Of a DNA stretch of 42,527 nucleotides, positions 34,658 to 42,527 are shown piece by piece (the stretch's first letter is position 1; each line of letters opens with the position of its first letter). Position numbers and translations under genes: made by a program. The stretch is taken from the NCBI GenBank assembly GCA_015488735.1, contig WFNG01000062.1, positions 1-42,527 on the forward strand, written 5' to 3'. The notes below the pieces were generated by a model. It was given only the letters and a program-made list of their open reading frames with translations, was not told the origin of the DNA and ran no database searches. Source of the DNA: Bacteroidales bacterium (GTDB lineage Bacteria > Bacteroidota > Bacteroidia > Bacteroidales > F082).

Positions 34658-34779
34658 ACAGTCATTTTTTAAGTTTCGGAAGTTATTTGCCAATATATCA
34701 ACCCCCTTTATCCTCTCCCAAAAGGAGCTGCATTTGGTTTGGGCATTCAATATAATTGATTATCAAATGGGGGATTTTG

Positions 34780-34787
34780 TACTTTTG
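34780..34787 (+). promoter_or_regulatory. Promoter -7 element for hemY-like gene
   Basis: TACTTTTG matches TAnnTTTG, 43 bases before the ATG at 34831, within the ORF-track N-terminal extension. It supports the shorter start. Confidence 0.5.
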
Positions 34788-34830
34788 TACTTTCGCCTTC
34801 CAGAAATGCGAAGCCAAAACCAGAAAAAGA

Positions 34831-36189
34831 ATGAAAGAGAAGAGGGTAGCTATAATAGGTGCGGGGATTACCGGACTTGTAACAGCTTTTTATTTAAAAA
34901 AAGCCGGTATTGCTTTCAGAATATTCGAAAAATCAATACACATTGGGGGCGTAATTGAAACTTGCCGGCAAGACGGATTTACTTATGAAAAGGGACCCAA
35001 CAGTGGGGTGTTGGCAAATGCGGAAACCATTGAGCTGTTTGAGGATATGGATAACCTTTGCAAGCCTGAGATTGCAGATGCATCTTCGGCAAAACGACTT
35101 ATATGGAAAGGCGAAAAATGGTACCCGCTACCTTCGGGAATTTTAAGTGGCATTACCACTCCCCTTTTCTCTATAAAAGATAAATTTAGATTGTTGGGCG
35201 AGCCTTTTCGCAAAAAGGGAACCGACCCGAACGAAACACTCTCGCGGCTGGTTATCCGCAGAATGGGACAGAGCTTTCTGGATTACGCCATCGACCCTTT
35301 TATTTTGGGAATTTATGCCGGAGATCCGGCTTATATCGTACCAAAATATGCACTTCCCAAACTTTATCAGCTGGAACAGAATTACGGAAGTTTTATAGGC
35401 GGTGCCATCAAAAAGAAAAGAGAGAAAAAAAGTACCCGGGAAATGAAAGTAACCCGTGAGATTTTTTCTGTTGAAGGCGGCTTACAGCGACTTACAGGGG
35501 TACTGGCAGAAATTATCGGATTGGAAAATATTGAATTGGAATGCAAAAACGTTTTTACGGAAAAAACCAACCGGGATTTTCGTGTTCATTTTAAAAACCA
35601 ACAGGAAAATTTTTCTCATATAGTGAGTACCATCAGCAGCAACGGCCTTCCCTCCCTGTTTCCATTTGTAGAAAAAAAACATTGGCAACCGGTTCTTAAC
35701 CTGCAATACGCAAAAGTTACCGAAGTGGCCATTGGTTATAAAAAATGGGAGGGGATTTCTCTGGATGCCTTTGGAGGTTTAATTCCTTTCAAAGAAAAAC
35801 GGGATCTTCTCGGCGTATTGTTTATGTCGAGCCTGTTTAAGAACCGTGCCCCCGAAGGCGGAGCTTTGCTCACAACTTTTGTGGGTGGTATGCGACGGCC
35901 TGAGTTAGCAGAGTTAAAAGAAGAAGAACTTTATAAGCTTGTAAAAAAAGAACTGGAAATAACTATGGGAGTTAAGGATATTGAACCAGATTTGTTTCAA
36001 TATGCAACCCACCGGCAGGCCATTGCCCAGTACGGCACCGATTCGGAAGCACGTTTTCGCGCCATTGCAGCCATCGAATTACAACATAAGGGAGTTTATC
36101 TCGGCGGAAGCATCCGCGATGGTATTGGTATGGCAGACAGAATAAAACAAGCTCATTTTATGGCGGAAGACATTATTCTAAATGAGTAA
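34831..36189 (+). CDS. hemY: Protoporphyrinogen/coproporphyrinogen oxidase, HemY type
   Basis: The 452-residue flavoprotein has the FAD dinucleotide fold VAIIGAGITGLVTAFYLKKAG, a GG-motif GFTYEKGPNSGVLAN, and the C-terminal GVYLGGSIRDGIGMADRI typical of the HemY/HemG-like amine-oxidase superfamily. The family oxidises protoporphyrinogen IX (or coproporphyrinogen III in Gram-positive types) with oxygen in heme synthesis. LPKLYQLEQNYGSFIGGAIKK is also family-typical. Substrate of the two cannot be told from sequence alone. The start MKEKR is chosen because the -7 element precedes it. It converges on mmdB. Confidence 0.9.
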   Translation: MKEKRVAIIGAGITGLVTAFYLKKAGIAFRIFEKSIHIGGVIETCRQDGFTYEKGPNSGVLANAETIELFEDMDNLCKPEIADASSAKRLIWKGEKWYPLPSGILSGITTPLFSIKDKFRLLGEPFRKKGTDPNETLSRLVIRRMGQSFLDYAIDPFILGIYAGDPAYIVPKYALPKLYQLEQNYGSFIGGAIKKKREKKSTREMKVTREIFSVEGGLQRLTGVLAEIIGLENIELECKNVFTEKTNRDFRVHFKNQQENFSHIVSTISSNGLPSLFPFVEKKHWQPVLNLQYAKVTEVAIGYKKWEGISLDAFGGLIPFKEKRDLLGVLFMSSLFKNRAPEGGALLTTFVGGMRRPELAELKEEELYKLVKKELEITMGVKDIEPDLFQYATHRQAIAQYGTDSEARFRAIAAIELQHKGVYLGGSIRDGIGMADRIKQAHFMAEDIILNE

Positions 36190-36262
36190 TAATCTGAATT
36201 TTAACGATATTCCATCGGACGCGGCATTGTAAATTTCAAAATATATTAAAATACAATTGGTA

Positions 36263-37627
36263 CTACATTAAGAAACTCATCATTATCCCGGCTGCTACTG
36301 CAGACCCAATTACACCAGCCACATTAGGGGCCATGGCATGCATAAGCAGATGGTTTGAGCTATCGTAGCGCAAGCCTTCGGTTTGTACTACACGGGCACT
36401 GTCGGGAACAGCTGACACGCCTGCCGCACCAATGAGCGGATTGATTTTGTTCTGAGGCAGGGAAAACAAATTCATAACCCTGGCAAAAATAACACCACCT
36501 GCCGTAGCCACAATAAAGGACAGTGCTCCTAAAACAAAAATCAGAATCGACTCGCTGGTCAAAAACACATCCGCTTGCGTGGAGGCACCCACCGTAAGTC
36601 CGAGAATAATGGTTACTATATCAATTAACGAGGTGCGGGCTGTTGTTGCCAGCCTTGTGGTTACACCGCTTTCTTTCAACAGGTTCCCGAAAAACAACAT
36701 GCCGAGCAAAGGCAAAGCTCCGGGTGAGATGAATGTGGTAAGGATTAAAGCCAACACCGGAAAAATTATCTTTTCCGTTTTACTCACCGCCCGCGGGGGC
36801 TTCATACGGATAAGCCGTTCTTTTTTGGTTGTAAGCAATCTCATAACAGGAGGTTGTATAACCGGTACCAAAGCCATATAAGAGTAGGCAGCTACAGCGA
36901 TGGGCCCAATAAGGTTCATGGTTTTTATGCCATTTACTATGCTTCCATTTGCCAGTTTTGAAGAAAGGAAAATAGCTGTAGGCCCGTCTGCTCCCCCGAT
37001 AATTCCAATGGAACCGGCTTCAGGAAGATTAAATCCCAGCCAAATAGCGCCCAAAAAAGTTAAAAATATTCCCAGCTGTGCAGCTGCGCCCAGCAACATT
37101 AATCTCGGATTGGAGATAAGTGAAGAGAAATCAGTCATGGCACCTATCCCTAAAAAGATAAGCGGGGGGTAAATCCCTTTCATAACACCGAAATACAAGT
37201 AGTTAAGAACACTTCCTTTTTGATAAATCCCAATTTGCAAATTGATACCTCCATCCTGAAAGAAGGGAACATTTCCCAAAATAATACCTGCTCCAATGGG
37301 GATAAGCAGCAAAGGTTCATACTCATAACGGATGGCCAGAAATATGAAAAAGATACCCACAAGAATCATAATAATATTCCCTCCGCTGGCATTGCGAAAT
37401 CCTGTAAATTCAAAAAATTTACCAATTCCTTTTAGTATTTCACTTCCAAAATTGGTTCCGGTGGTTCTGGATAATTGCCCCACCGTTTTACCCATTGCTT
37501 CGGCACCGGTAACATTCCCTGTAAAAACCAGATTGGCAGCTATTAAAAAGAGTAAAAGCCCAAAAATGAGCAAAGCCTTTTTTACCATCGGGCTAACCGG
37601 CTTTTCTATAGAAAACTGATTTTTCAT
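36263..37627 (-). CDS. mmdB: Sodium-translocating decarboxylase beta subunit
   Basis: The 454-residue membrane protein has about 9-11 helices. It performs decarboxylation of carboxybiotin and pumps sodium out in the methylmalonyl-CoA (or oxaloacetate/glutaconyl-CoA) decarboxylase family. The key Asp motif GIIGGADGPTAIF and the closing GVSAVPDSARVVQ and GSAVAAGIMMSFL blocks are intact. Oxaloacetate types carry a different alpha subunit, so methylmalonyl-CoA is favoured. It ends the operon, overlapping the biotin carrier gene by four bases if that gene starts at 38064. Confidence 0.94.
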   Translation of the reverse strand: MKNQFSIEKPVSPMVKKALLIFGLLLFLIAANLVFTGNVTGAEAMGKTVGQLSRTTGTNFGSEILKGIGKFFEFTGFRNASGGNIIMILVGIFFIFLAIRYEYEPLLLIPIGAGIILGNVPFFQDGGINLQIGIYQKGSVLNYLYFGVMKGIYPPLIFLGIGAMTDFSSLISNPRLMLLGAAAQLGIFLTFLGAIWLGFNLPEAGSIGIIGGADGPTAIFLSSKLANGSIVNGIKTMNLIGPIAVAAYSYMALVPVIQPPVMRLLTTKKERLIRMKPPRAVSKTEKIIFPVLALILTTFISPGALPLLGMLFFGNLLKESGVTTRLATTARTSLIDIVTIILGLTVGASTQADVFLTSESILIFVLGALSFIVATAGGVIFARVMNLFSLPQNKINPLIGAAGVSAVPDSARVVQTEGLRYDSSNHLLMHAMAPNVAGVIGSAVAAGIMMSFLM

Positions 37628-38046
37628 TTTAATTCAATTTCAAGTAAAACATCATCCTGTAATACGTTGTCGCCGGCTTTCACCTTTAGTGATTTTACAT
37701 TTCCTGCTGTTTCAGCTTTTAACAGATTTTCCATTTTCATGGCTTCATAAATAAGCAAATCATCATTTTTTGTAATCCTATCGCCTTCTTTTACAAACAC
37801 TTTCATAATATGACCTGGAAGTGGTGCTTTTATTTTTGCTAGTCCTCCGCCTTTTTGCCCACCCGAAGGACTGCCGGTATTGCCAAAAGCATGGCGTTTA
37901 ACAGCAGGTGAAACGGCATCTCTTTCCTTTTGCAGTTCCACATTATATTGGGTACCATTCACCTCGATGGTGGCAATTTGTCCTTCTAGTTTCTGAAGCT
38001 GAGTTTCATATTCGTTACCCCGAATGGTAAATTTAAATCGTTTCAT
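37624..38046 (-). CDS. mmdC: Biotin carrier subunit of the sodium decarboxylase
   Basis: The 140-residue protein has an N-terminal adaptor (KRFKFTIRGNEYETQL), a Gly-rich linker around residues 58-70 and a biotinyl domain from about 72. Biotin is attached at Lys104 in EAMKMEN. It carries the carboxyl group from the carboxyltransferase to the beta subunit. The ORF may start six codons earlier at 38064, where ATG overlaps the stop of the delta gene; MKRFKF fits homologs and is used here. Confidence 0.93.
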   Translation of the reverse strand: MKRFKFTIRGNEYETQLQKLEGQIATIEVNGTQYNVELQKERDAVSPAVKRHAFGNTGSPSGGQKGGGLAKIKAPLPGHIMKVFVKEGDRITKNDDLLIYEAMKMENLLKAETAGNVKSLKVKAGDNVLQDDVLLEIELK

Positions 38047-38060
38047 AATTACAATTTTTA

Positions 38061-38414
38061 TCATTTAAAATGCTGAAGCCCGTAAATTTTTGAGCTCCAG
38101 GGTGAATAACTCCGTGAGGCTTTTTTAATGGTTAAAATATTACTTTCGTCATCGTGTAATTCCTGCTCCAGATATATGGTCATTGCAATAGCCGCTACTA
38201 CCTGTCCGGGAATGTCGAAACTTTGGTTTTCTTCAATCCTGGGCATTTTTCCCAGACGTGTCAGCTTTTTCTTGATGTTATACCGGAGGAGCGTTGATGC
38301 CATCTTAAAAGAATAATACAGGAGCAAAAGTGCAAAGAAGACAATTAAATAACCAGTAACAGATATAATTATTCCTTCTTCTTTTATGGTTGACAATGCT
38401 GTTATAAGTATCAT
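38061..38414 (-). CDS. mmdD: Small OadG-like assembly subunit
   Basis: The 117-residue protein has one membrane helix (YLIVFFALLLLYYSF) and a polar tail ending in IKKASRSYSPWSSKIYGLQHF, a block also found in OadG-family subunits fused or linked to biotin carrier genes. OadG/MmdD proteins hold the peripheral carboxyltransferase against the membrane beta subunit and aid assembly. It lies between mmdA (ten bases) and mmdC. Confidence 0.85.
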   Translation of the reverse strand: MILITALSTIKEEGIIISVTGYLIVFFALLLLYYSFKMASTLLRYNIKKKLTRLGKMPRIEENQSFDIPGQVVAAIAMTIYLEQELHDDESNILTIKKASRSYSPWSSKIYGLQHFK

Positions 38415-38424
38415 ATAAATTAAT

Positions 38425-39981
38425 TTAAAGGGGAATATTTGAATGTTTTTTGGGAGGATTGGTATCTTTTTTAGTAGCGAGTGTTTGTAGTGCTCTTATG
38501 ATACGAAACCGGCTGTTGCGGGGTTCAATTACGTCATCGATAAATCCATATTTGGCAGCTTCATAAGGGTTTGCAAATTTTTCACGATACTCTTTTTCTT
38601 TGGAGGAAAGGTAAGTTTTGCTTTCATCTTCATCCATTTTCCTGATTGCCTTCCCTTCCAGAATTTCAACAGCCCCTGCTGCACCCATTACGGCAATTTC
38701 TGCCGAAGGCCAGGCATAATTAATATCGCCACGCAATTGTTTGGAACCCATTACGTCGTGGGCCCCACCGTAAGATTTACGCAGAGTAATTGTGATTTTT
38801 GGAACTGTAGCCTCGCCATAAGCAAACAGTAATTTGGCACCGTGGATGATAATTCCGCCATATTCCTGGGCGCTTCCCGGTAAAAAACCAGGCACATCAA
38901 CCAGTGTAAGAATAGGGATGTTAAAAGCATCGCAAAAACGGACAAAGCGGGCTGCTTTACGCGAAGCATTAATATCGAGTACCCCGGCCAGATAGTTGGG
39001 CTGATTAGCCACAATACCCACTGACATGCCATTGAACCGTGCAAACCCGGTTACAATGTTTTTGGCAAAATCTTTCTGAACTTCCAATAGCTTATTCTCA
39101 TCAGTAATGGAATAAATAACATCTTTAACATCGTAAGGTTTGTTGGCATTGTCAGGAATAATTTCGTTCAGCACATCTTCCATGCGGTCGATAGGATCTG
39201 TACATTCCTGCAGGGGCGGCTCTTCCAGATTATTCTGAGGTAAATACGAAAGCAATTCGCGGATAAGCAACAAACCGGTCTCTTCATTTTCTACCTGAAA
39301 GTGACTTACTCCCGACTTTTTTCCGTGGACAGCCGCACCACCCAAATCTTCTGTCGTAATCTCTTCACCGGTAACCGTTTTGGCCACTTTCGGACCGGTA
39401 ACAAACATGTAACTATGGTATTCGCTCATAAGGATAAAATCGGTGAGAGCGGGGGAATAAACCGCACCACCTGCACAAGGGCCGAATATTGCAGAAATTT
39501 GAGGGATAACACCTGAAGCCAGAATGTTCTTCTGAAAAATATCAGCATAACCTGCCAAACTTTTCACTCCTTCCTGAATGCGTGCGCCGCCGCTATCGTT
39601 CAGCCCGATAACAGGCACACCAACTTTCATGGCCTGGTCCATAACTTTGCAAATCTTTTTGGCAAATGATTCCGAAAGGGAACCACCGAAAATGCTGAAA
39701 TCCTGTGAAAAAACATAAACAATACGCCCATCAATGGTGCCGTGCCCCGTGATAACACCATCGGTCAGATAATGCTCTTTGTCGAGACCAAATTCGGTAC
39801 TGCGATGGCTGACAAACATGTCGTATTCCTCAAAGCTGCCTCCATCGAGCAGCAAATCAATGCGCTCTCGTGCCGAGAGTTTTCCCTTTTTGTGCTGCGC
39901 ATCTAATCGTTTTTTGCCACCACCCAACCGGGCTTCTTCCCGTTTATCGAGCAAGGCTTGTATATTCTCTTCTATGGTCAT
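38425..39981 (-). CDS. mmdA: Methylmalonyl-CoA decarboxylase/propionyl-CoA carboxylase carboxyltransferase
   Basis: The 518-residue crotonase-type carboxyltransferase moves the carboxyl group between an acyl-CoA and biotin. Domain 1 shows [19 protein letters not shown], then [17 protein letters not shown] and [17 protein letters not shown]; domain 2 has [37 protein letters not shown] and the [12 protein letters not shown]-like [10 protein letters not shown]. The oxyanion Gly-Gly pairs are intact. With the membrane beta subunit in the same operon, decarboxylation coupled to sodium export is the likely direction. It follows the mce remnant and probably shares its promoter. Confidence 0.94.
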
Positions 39982-40072
39982 GGCTATTTTTTATTATTTG
40001 TGAATTATATAACAATATAAATGAATTTTATGAAATATGGTCGTAAATGACTGTAATTATTTAAAGAGGGGG

Positions 40073-40321
40073 CTATTCTTGTACAATTAGATGTGTAAGC
40101 CAAAAGTTGTCAATAGATTTTCCAAAGAGGCCGTTAATATCCAGGCTTCCAAGAAACTCAGGTATGGTTTGTCCAACTTTAAAAAAGGCAGATTTCACTT
40201 TTTGGTCTTTCGCTTCTACTATGTCATAACATTCTAATCCCAATGTGTTTTCATAAAGCGCCATAACTTCCTTAAGGTTCTGAACGGCAATTCCGATATG
40301 TTTTATAGGTGATATCTCCAT
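40073..40321 (-). pseudogene. mce: Truncated methylmalonyl-CoA epimerase (mce remnant)
   Basis: The first 56 codons (IKHIGIAVQNLKEVMALYENTLGL and KVKSAFFKVGQT) match methylmalonyl-CoA epimerase, which is about 135 residues and makes two VOC half-sites. After this the match decays (FLGSLDINGLFGKSIDN), and a stop comes at residue 83, so the second half and the metal-binding Glu are gone. Only 91 bases remain to mmdA, too few for the missing part. A TACTTTTG promoter element (40349-40356) precedes it. It is probably a decayed leader of the mmd operon; a short functional protein cannot be excluded. Confidence 0.85.
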
Positions 40322-40348
40322 CTTGAAATTCTTTTGTTAACAACTTCA

Positions 40349-40356
40349 CAAAAGTA
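40349..40356 (-). promoter_or_regulatory. Promoter -7 element for the mmd operon
   Basis: Minus-strand TACTTTTG matches TAnnTTTG, 27 bases before the mce remnant ATG. A clear -33 TTTG is missing. Confidence 0.45.
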
Positions 40357-40440
40357 TATTATCTTTCAAGATAAAAGCATTAGTGGATTACTGAATATTG
40401 CAAGTTTGTATAATACATATTTAAACCAAATAAACCCAGG

Positions 40441-42527
40441 TTATTTCAAATACTTATCTAACGCTTCAAAGAGGTAAACTTTTCGGGTAGGCTTACTCAA
40501 AAAAGCCGAACATCCGGCATTTTGTGCTTCTTCCTGATTTTCCAGACCGGTATAGGCTGTTTGGGCAATTACTGTTAAGTCAGGGTTATGCTCTTTTATC
40601 AGGCGGGTAGCCTGGAGTCCGCCCATTTCAGGCATTTTAATATCCATAAGTACCAAGCTTATTTCCGGATATTTTTTACAAAAATCAACTGCTTCTTTTC
40701 CATTAATAGCATGAAGAACTTTCATGTCTGGATTGTATTTTTTCAACAGGATTTCCAGGTACTGATAATTTACCTCTTCATCCTCTGTTACCAATACTGT
40801 AACACGCGTACCAGCTGACTCTGCAGCTTTTGCCATTATGGATTGCATCTCCGGATTGACAGGATTATATTTAATTTCCACAAAGAAAGTGGATCCTTTT
40901 CCTTTTTTGGATTCCACACGTATTTTCCCGTTTAGCAAAGCAACATTTCCTTTCACAATAGAAAGTCCCAGCCCCAGCCCACCAGACATGCGGGACAGCC
41001 TTTTGTCCTCCTGCGAAAATTGTTCAAAAATGAGTTCCTGTGCTTCAGAACCAATTCCCATACCGGAATCTTTTACATAAAATTCAAGGTTATCTCCTTT
41101 AAGGGAATACCCCAATTCAACATATCCCTGTTGCGTAAATTTCAAAGCATTTTCCAGCAAATGATCGATTATTTTATGTAGTTTTTCTTCATCTACATAA
41201 ATATTTGCAGCTTCATCAGACAGCCCTTTTTTTACATAAAGGGAAATGTCTTTATTTTTGGCCACGGCATCAAATTCAGAAAAACACTTGATAAGCATCT
41301 CGTTGATGTTCACAATAGAATCTTCTTTTTTGTCCTGATGGGTTTGAAGTTTTGAAACTTCCAGAATTTCATCAATAATGTGCAGCAACTGTCGCGTGCT
41401 GTTTTGGATAATATTCACATAATTTTTTCGCGAATCAGGGCTTATATCTTCATCCTCCAGCAGCGAGGAAAAACCAATAATACCATTCATAGGGGTTCTG
41501 ATTTCATGTGACATATTGGCAAGGAATTCACTTTTTAATTTATTACTTTCTTCTGCTTTCTGTTTTGCCTTCCTTAGTTCAGACTCTATTTCCTTACGAC
41601 CTGTAATATCCTCTTTAACAGCTATATAATGGGTGGTTTTACCGTGTGTGTTTTTTACCGGCGAAATACTCACCAATTCCCAGTAAAGACTCTGGTCTTT
41701 TCTGCGGTTAATCATTTCTCCCTGCCACTCATTACCGGCAGAAATGGTTGCCCACAGTTCGGTGTATAAACTGTCCGGCATCTTTCCTGATTTTAGTATG
41801 CGGGGATTTTGTCCCAAAGCTTCTTGTGCAGTGTATCCACTTACCTCGGTAAATTTTTTATTCACATACTGAATACTTCCCTCCAAATCAGTAATCACGA
41901 TGGAGGCAGGACTTTGTTCAACGCCTAGCGAAAGCTGCCGGATTTTTTCTTCAGATTCTTTTCTTTCGGTAATATCGCGGACAATGCTTAAAACAAATTC
42001 CTCATTACCAATTTTTACAATTCCCGAATTTATTTCCACAGGGAATTCACCGCCATCTTTCCGGACAAATATTGTTTCAAAAACCAGTATCTCTCCAAGT
42101 GTAAAATGATCCCAGTATTCGGTTTTTTGTACTTCGGCAATGGCCTTAGGAACCAGGTCAAAAGCTTTTAGTTTTAACAGTTCATCCTGCGAATAGTTCA
42201 AAATCTTCTCTGCTTTTCCATTGGCATTCACTATATTACCTTCCATGTCAAAAAGAAAAATACTGTCGTTGGCTTCCTCCATCACCGTTTTATAGCGTTG
42301 ATTACTTGCCCTGAGTTTATTCAGGGCATCTTTCCGTTCTATAAAAAGTGCCAGCTGGTTGGAGATAAAGCTCATCAGCTCCTCATCCTTTTTAGAAAAA
42401 GCACTGGGATTGTCCAAATGCATAAGTGCCATGACTCCGATAAAATTATCCTGGCTTACGAGGGGAATCCCCATCCACAATGACTGATAGGGCCCGATTC
42501 TCTGCACCTCTCCTTTTTTTTCAAGAC
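40441..42527 (-). CDS. Hybrid sensor histidine kinase (GAF-PAS-PAS-HisKA-HATPase-REC), partial
   Basis: The frame stays open to the right edge, so the ORF-track GTG start at 42507 is not the true start (residues LEKKGE precede it). In order come a GAF-like domain, two PAS domains (ANDSIFLFDMEGNIVNANGKA and SIVITDLEGSIQYVNKKFTEVSG), HisKA with phospho-His in NMSHEIRTPMNG, an ATPase (NALKFT, DSGMGIGSE, GLGLGLSIVKG) and a receiver with acceptor Asp in LVLMDIKMPEMGG. No membrane segment appears in the visible part. The signal is unknown. It lies upstream of the mmd operon on the same strand but has its own gap. Confidence 0.93.
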   Translation of the reverse strand, partial: LEKKGEVQRIGPYQSLWMGIPLVSQDNFIGVMALMHLDNPSAFSKKDEELMSFISNQLALFIERKDALNKLRASNQRYKTVMEEANDSIFLFDMEGNIVNANGKAEKILNYSQDELLKLKAFDLVPKAIAEVQKTEYWDHFTLGEILVFETIFVRKDGGEFPVEINSGIVKIGNEEFVLSIVRDITERKESEEKIRQLSLGVEQSPASIVITDLEGSIQYVNKKFTEVSGYTAQEALGQNPRILKSGKMPDSLYTELWATISAGNEWQGEMINRRKDQSLYWELVSISPVKNTHGKTTHYIAVKEDITGRKEIESELRKAKQKAEESNKLKSEFLANMSHEIRTPMNGIIGFSSLLEDEDISPDSRKNYVNIIQNSTRQLLHIIDEILEVSKLQTHQDKKEDSIVNINEMLIKCFSEFDAVAKNKDISLYVKKGLSDEAANIYVDEEKLHKIIDHLLENALKFTQQGYVELGYSLKGDNLEFYVKDSGMGIGSEAQELIFEQFSQEDKRLSRMSGGLGLGLSIVKGNVALLNGKIRVESKKGKGSTFFVEIKYNPVNPEMQSIMAKAAESAGTRVTVLVTEDEEVNYQYLEILLKKYNPDMKVLHAINGKEAVDFCKKYPEISLVLMDIKMPEMGGLQATRLIKEHNPDLTVIAQTAYTGLENQEEAQNAGCSAFLSKPTRKVYLFEALDKYLK

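Follow-up and report, generated by a model that had tools for sequence, protein, structure and literature searches.

A truncated epimerase gene heads a decarboxylase operon

Within the window, the whole 42,527-nucleotide stretch of DNA that was analyzed, there is a short open reading frame (ORF) related to methylmalonyl-CoA epimerase (mce). It lies directly upstream of mmdA, which is followed on the same strand by oadG, bcc and oadB. The genome (G000) is a draft of 262 contigs with 2.7% contamination, and we searched it both by family and by protein. The elements of the operon are listed below; percentages are identities to G009, a more distant member of the same genus.

40322-40434, reverse strand: upstream region in common with the mce of G009, the presumed operon promoter (blastn match 40165-40434, 78%)
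40073-40321, reverse strand: mce pseudogene, an ORF of 82 amino acids (TIGR03081 match and alignment with the intact mce of G009)
40112-40113, reverse strand: deletion junction (alignment with the mce of G009; exact endpoints ± a few nt)
40074-40109, reverse strand: out-of-frame leftover of the mce 3' end, about 36 nt (local alignment score 37)
38425-39981, reverse strand: mmdA, carboxyltransferase subunit of methylmalonyl-CoA decarboxylase (TIGR01117, 2.9e-234, 778.6 bits; 94%)
38061-38414, reverse strand: oadG-like small subunit (88%, at the same operon place)
37624-38064, reverse strand: bcc, biotin carboxyl carrier subunit (NCBIfam biotin-carrier models, e.g. NF005117, 9.7e-22)
36263-37627, reverse strand: oadB, beta subunit of Na+-translocating decarboxylase (TIGR01109, 463 bits, over the cut-off)

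The alpha, delta (oadG-like), gamma (biotin carrier) and beta subunits of a Na+-translocating methylmalonyl-CoA decarboxylase are thus all found together. The score of mmdA is below the TIGR01117 cut-off of 998.8 bits, and the substrate of the decarboxylase is therefore deduced from the gene context. The oadG-like gene at 38061-38414 gave no match to an NCBIfam model. Gene order and promoter position are the same as in the mce-mmdA-oadG-bcc-oadB operons of other Bacteroidota, from which the present one differs in its broken mce and in lying at another chromosomal site.

A reading made from the sequence alone had held that both the promoter and the place in the operon were kept, and comparison with G009 bears this out. 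The remnant occupies the position that the intact mce has in G009, and 40322-40434 aligns with the DNA upstream of that gene. A motif scan finds the element TAnnTTTG, which we take to be the Bacteroidota -7 element, at 40349-40356, 35 nt before the start codon both here and in G009, and finds no such element between the remnant and mmdA. Since the element is kept in both genomes and has no counterpart closer to mmdA, the retained promoter presumably drives mmdA.

A deletion has removed the core of mce

Residues 6-65 of the ORF correspond to positions 2-61 of TIGR03081, an epimerase model of 129 positions (2.8e-10), a similarity beyond chance that establishes homology. The score of 40.8 bits over 60 of the 129 positions falls short of both full length and the curated cut-off of 114.95 bits. 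Aligned with the whole mce of G009, the remnant exhibits a single internal gap of about 152 nt, placed after codon 69 plus 2 nt. About 69 in-frame mce codons are thus followed by the deletion, a frame-shifted tail and the stop TAG. The unusual C-terminus of the peptide, DNFWLTHLIVQE, arises because the 3' end of mce survives in a shifted frame; the alignment score of this leftover was matched by 3 of 2000 shuffled sequences. The sequence-only reading had described the first half of the gene as clear and the second as absent. The former is correct; the latter holds for the deleted section, while the last 36 nt or so (40109-40074) persist out of frame.

The GIHH and LTE motifs, which we take from general knowledge of the family to carry the later metal ligands of the enzyme, are gone from the remnant, having lain within the deleted and frame-shifted part. 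The earlier reading had noted the loss of the metal-binding Glu. Compared with known epimerases (TIGR03081; structures 3oa4, 6wf6 and 1jc4), the remnant is homologous in its N-terminal half, including the first HIGIA motif, whereas the half bearing GIHH and LTE has gone with the deletion or is read in another frame, and the peptide cannot be expected to form an active site. In G009, G011 and G026 the orthologous operon has an intact mce in this position. Taken together, the alignments confirm 40073-40321 as an mce pseudogene, as judged from sequence. A peptide-pattern search of the genome contigs with the 82-residue remnant found nothing.

The remnant has lost amino acid constraint

Within the remaining half of mce, 21 private amino acid changes have occurred in the remnant, compared with one on the G009 side. 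From ten intact mce copies we defined a set of 39 invariant positions; 11 of these are altered in the remnant, compared with 0-2 in each intact copy. The pairwise dN/dS against G009 is approximately 0.28 for the remnant, 0.06 for the same half of an intact mce on contig C223 of this genome (see below) and 0.02 for mmdA, with values of about 0.02-0.13 for the individual decarboxylase genes. These values indicate that the remnant peptide has lost amino acid constraint, and that purifying selection has maintained the decarboxylase genes. There is no stop in the 69 codons before the junction. Simulated neutral change keeps the frame open with P = 0.16-0.35, so that a stop-free remnant is compatible with chance.

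An intact epimerase is encoded elsewhere

The earlier reading had offered two outcomes for the pathway: an intact epimerase elsewhere, or a pathway running from the S-isomer only. A search of the genome for a full mce supports the former, locating one at 7543-7926 of contig C223 that scores 160 bits, over the TIGR03081 cut-off. It lies between pabC and udk. The same pabC-mce-udk arrangement occurs in G003, G005 and G006, and mce adjoins udk in G001, G004, G007 and G008. A methylmalonyl-CoA mutase gene is present on contig C22, the preceding partner subunit being cut by the contig end. Methylmalonyl-CoA decarboxylases use the S-form of the substrate and the mutase yields the R-form (PMC5512728, PMC11575231). 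An epimerase is therefore expected, and one is present. Judged by its genes, the propionate pathway is intact despite the broken mce.

We considered whether C223 or the window contig could be contaminating DNA, and this is unlikely. The nearest kin of both are in G002-G006, and the single close match to udk in the genome is on C223, so that this contig is no obvious contaminant.

The pabC gene beside the resident mce (locus L009, 7128-7451) encodes 90 amino acids, compared with 196 in G009, and next to it on C223 no match to pabB was found. Part of the pabC/pabB pair may be lost in this genome.

The operon occupies a site that is empty in sister species

The DNA shared with the G009 operon extends over the following segment, enclosed by two flanking genes.

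36257-40434, reverse strand: segment homologous to the G009 operon, the putative imported piece (blastn 36257-40028 and 40165-40434)
34756-36189, forward strand: left flank, gene of the flavin amine oxidoreductase family (PF01593; 71-78% to G002-G006, 59% to G009)
40441-42525, reverse strand: right flank, PAS/histidine-kinase/response-regulator hybrid, cut by the contig end (Pfam; 69-73% to G002, G003, G005 and G006)

Both ends of the segment fall in intergenic DNA. The alignment at the left boundary is weak, and the insertion point would lie somewhere in the 67-nt interval that separates 36189 from 36257. In G002, G003 and G005 a small zinc-ribbon gene is all that separates the oxidoreductase gene from the kinase gene, and in G004 and G006 the zinc-ribbon gene is beside the oxidoreductase. 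It has no match in the window, and is absent from the interval 36190-40440 between the two flanking genes.

In matched stretches of the oxidoreductase gene we observe 1 to 3 in-frame stops in G006 (L089), G003 (L091) and G009 (L096). These copies may be decaying, may contain assembly errors, or the match may overrun the end of the gene.

The operon is closest to that of a distant congener

In G009 the gene order is pabC-mce-mmdA-oadG-bcc-oadB-udk, with a whole mce of 138 amino acids. The mmdA and oadB products of the present genome share 94 and 93% identity with their G009 counterparts, 84 and 79% with those of G007 and 80 and 80% with those of G011; between G009 and G007 the values are 85 and 81%. 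The pccB-like and C155-type carboxyltransferase genes, which are present across the genus, place the genome differently, with 88-89% identity to G009 and 92-96% to G002-G006. Over the operon dS to G009 is 1.0-1.5, compared with 1.7-2.3 or saturation in other gene pairs. The operon is thus more closely related to a distant congener than the rest of the genome is, and it lies at a site that is unoccupied in the sister species.

In the mmdA tree this genome joins G009 (100/98), while a two-gene tree places it within the G002-G006 clade (99/97) with G009 outside. No intact mmdA of this type was found in G001-G006, G008 and G010. As the sister species do not have the gene, the mmdA tree is not in outright conflict with the species tree. 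Transfer is favored by the branch lengths, by synteny at the unoccupied site and by an upstream match that is complete only with G009, and it is from this pattern that we infer both the transfer and its direction. The mce-mmd operon and its promoter most likely came from a G009-like donor.

Origin of the pseudogene

In the explanation that we consider very probable, the mce pseudogene entered the genome at the head of an imported operon, was redundant with the resident copy, and decayed. The recipient would beforehand have had its own mce in the pabC-mce-udk arrangement, and no Na+-pumping decarboxylase operon. A segment comprising promoter, mce, mmdA, oadG, bcc and oadB, as found at the pabC-mce-...-udk site of G009, would have inserted between the oxidoreductase and histidine-kinase genes, where it would now stand in place of the small zinc-ribbon gene. 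The decarboxylase genes would have been new to the recipient, and retained. The imported mce would have been a spare because the recipient already had one; it would have lost constraint and then its core by deletion, the promoter ahead of it being kept, presumably as the driver of mmdA. The earlier view of a decayed mce at the head of the operon is thus right as to the decay, but comparison of the site in relatives indicates that the gene which decayed was not the resident mce; it is better seen as a redundant imported copy. Decay of a redundant gene following horizontal acquisition of an operon is already known as a kind of event, with a second copy resident and only the redundant gene decayed, as here; what is new is this instance of it. 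It illustrates why a single gene decays within an operon that is otherwise retained, namely that the recipient possessed that gene beforehand. It also advises caution, in that a broken mce beside mmdA need not mean a broken propionate pathway.

The operon could instead have been inherited vertically, with an ancestral operon and a duplicated piece of the genome's own mce leaving the udk site and the sister species losing the operon. The mce-mmd-udk order in G009, found also in G026 of another genus, suggests that the ancestral operon was at the udk site, and G010 still has the wreck of an operon behind its mce. Yet the remnant is closer in nucleotide sequence to the mce of G009 (72.5%) than to the resident mce on C223 (65.7%), and the upstream match reaches 40434 only with G009, the C223 locus aligning only to 40343. 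Moreover the operon is too like that of G009 for its neighbors, and we regard such a relocation as improbable. An error of sequencing or assembly in a whole mce might be suspected in a draft genome, but it would have to account for a loss of 152 nt together with many private substitutions across the remaining half, and the adjacent mmdA has no comparable damage; we attach almost no weight to it. Hardly more credible is an altered pathway that uses the S-isomer only. Beyond the broken mce nothing points to it, and with a full-length epimerase and a mutase in the same genome it is not needed.

A further proposal concerns what the remnant now does. It could serve as a translated leader that channels ribosomes into mmdA or acts as a sensor of some kind, which would make it a new small regulatory ORF. 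The promoter and start codon are retained and the first 69 codons are free of stops; the shifted frame closes not far from the former stop, some 90 nt upstream of mmdA, and the promoter element has no counterpart in between. A role for the peptide is disfavored by its loss of constraint, both in dN/dS (0.28 against 0.06 for the intact N-terminal half) and at the invariant positions. Neutral drift alone could leave the frame open, and no relative has the same remnant. We therefore think a leader decidedly improbable, and we would give equally little credence to the corresponding idea that a decayed enzyme gene has turned into a regulatory ORF whose translation determines how the imported decarboxylase operon is expressed. 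A translated leader would be compatible with import of the operon.

The decarboxylase operon across the genus

Among loci fetched by oadB similarity, many have a full mce upstream of mmdA, and some have none or are cut; where mce lies upstream it is full or nearly so, with 128-138 aligned residues among the matches listed. The other epimerase matches in a search of 60 genomes are open frames of at least 132 amino acids, bar one that is cut by a contig end. Over the 60 genomes and these loci, a broken mce was seen only in the present genome.

In G010 (L071, contig C69, 3799-5337) mmdA and oadB survive as remnants interrupted by many stops, beside an intact mce, and the other two decarboxylase subunits are undetectable at this locus. 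By its sequence G010 is the mirror image of the present case, with mce whole and mmdA and oadB wrecked. A second mce match in G010 (contig C55) ends at the contig end, and provides no evidence of decay. G010 and the operon described here together suggest that a single genus has both lost and reacquired the Na+-pumping decarboxylase module while keeping the epimerase.

In G007 (L075, contig C32, 7647-11358) the mmd operon is separated from mce: it follows a transaldolase-like gene and has no mce match ahead of it. From this location, it is probable that the operon has changed place repeatedly within the genus.
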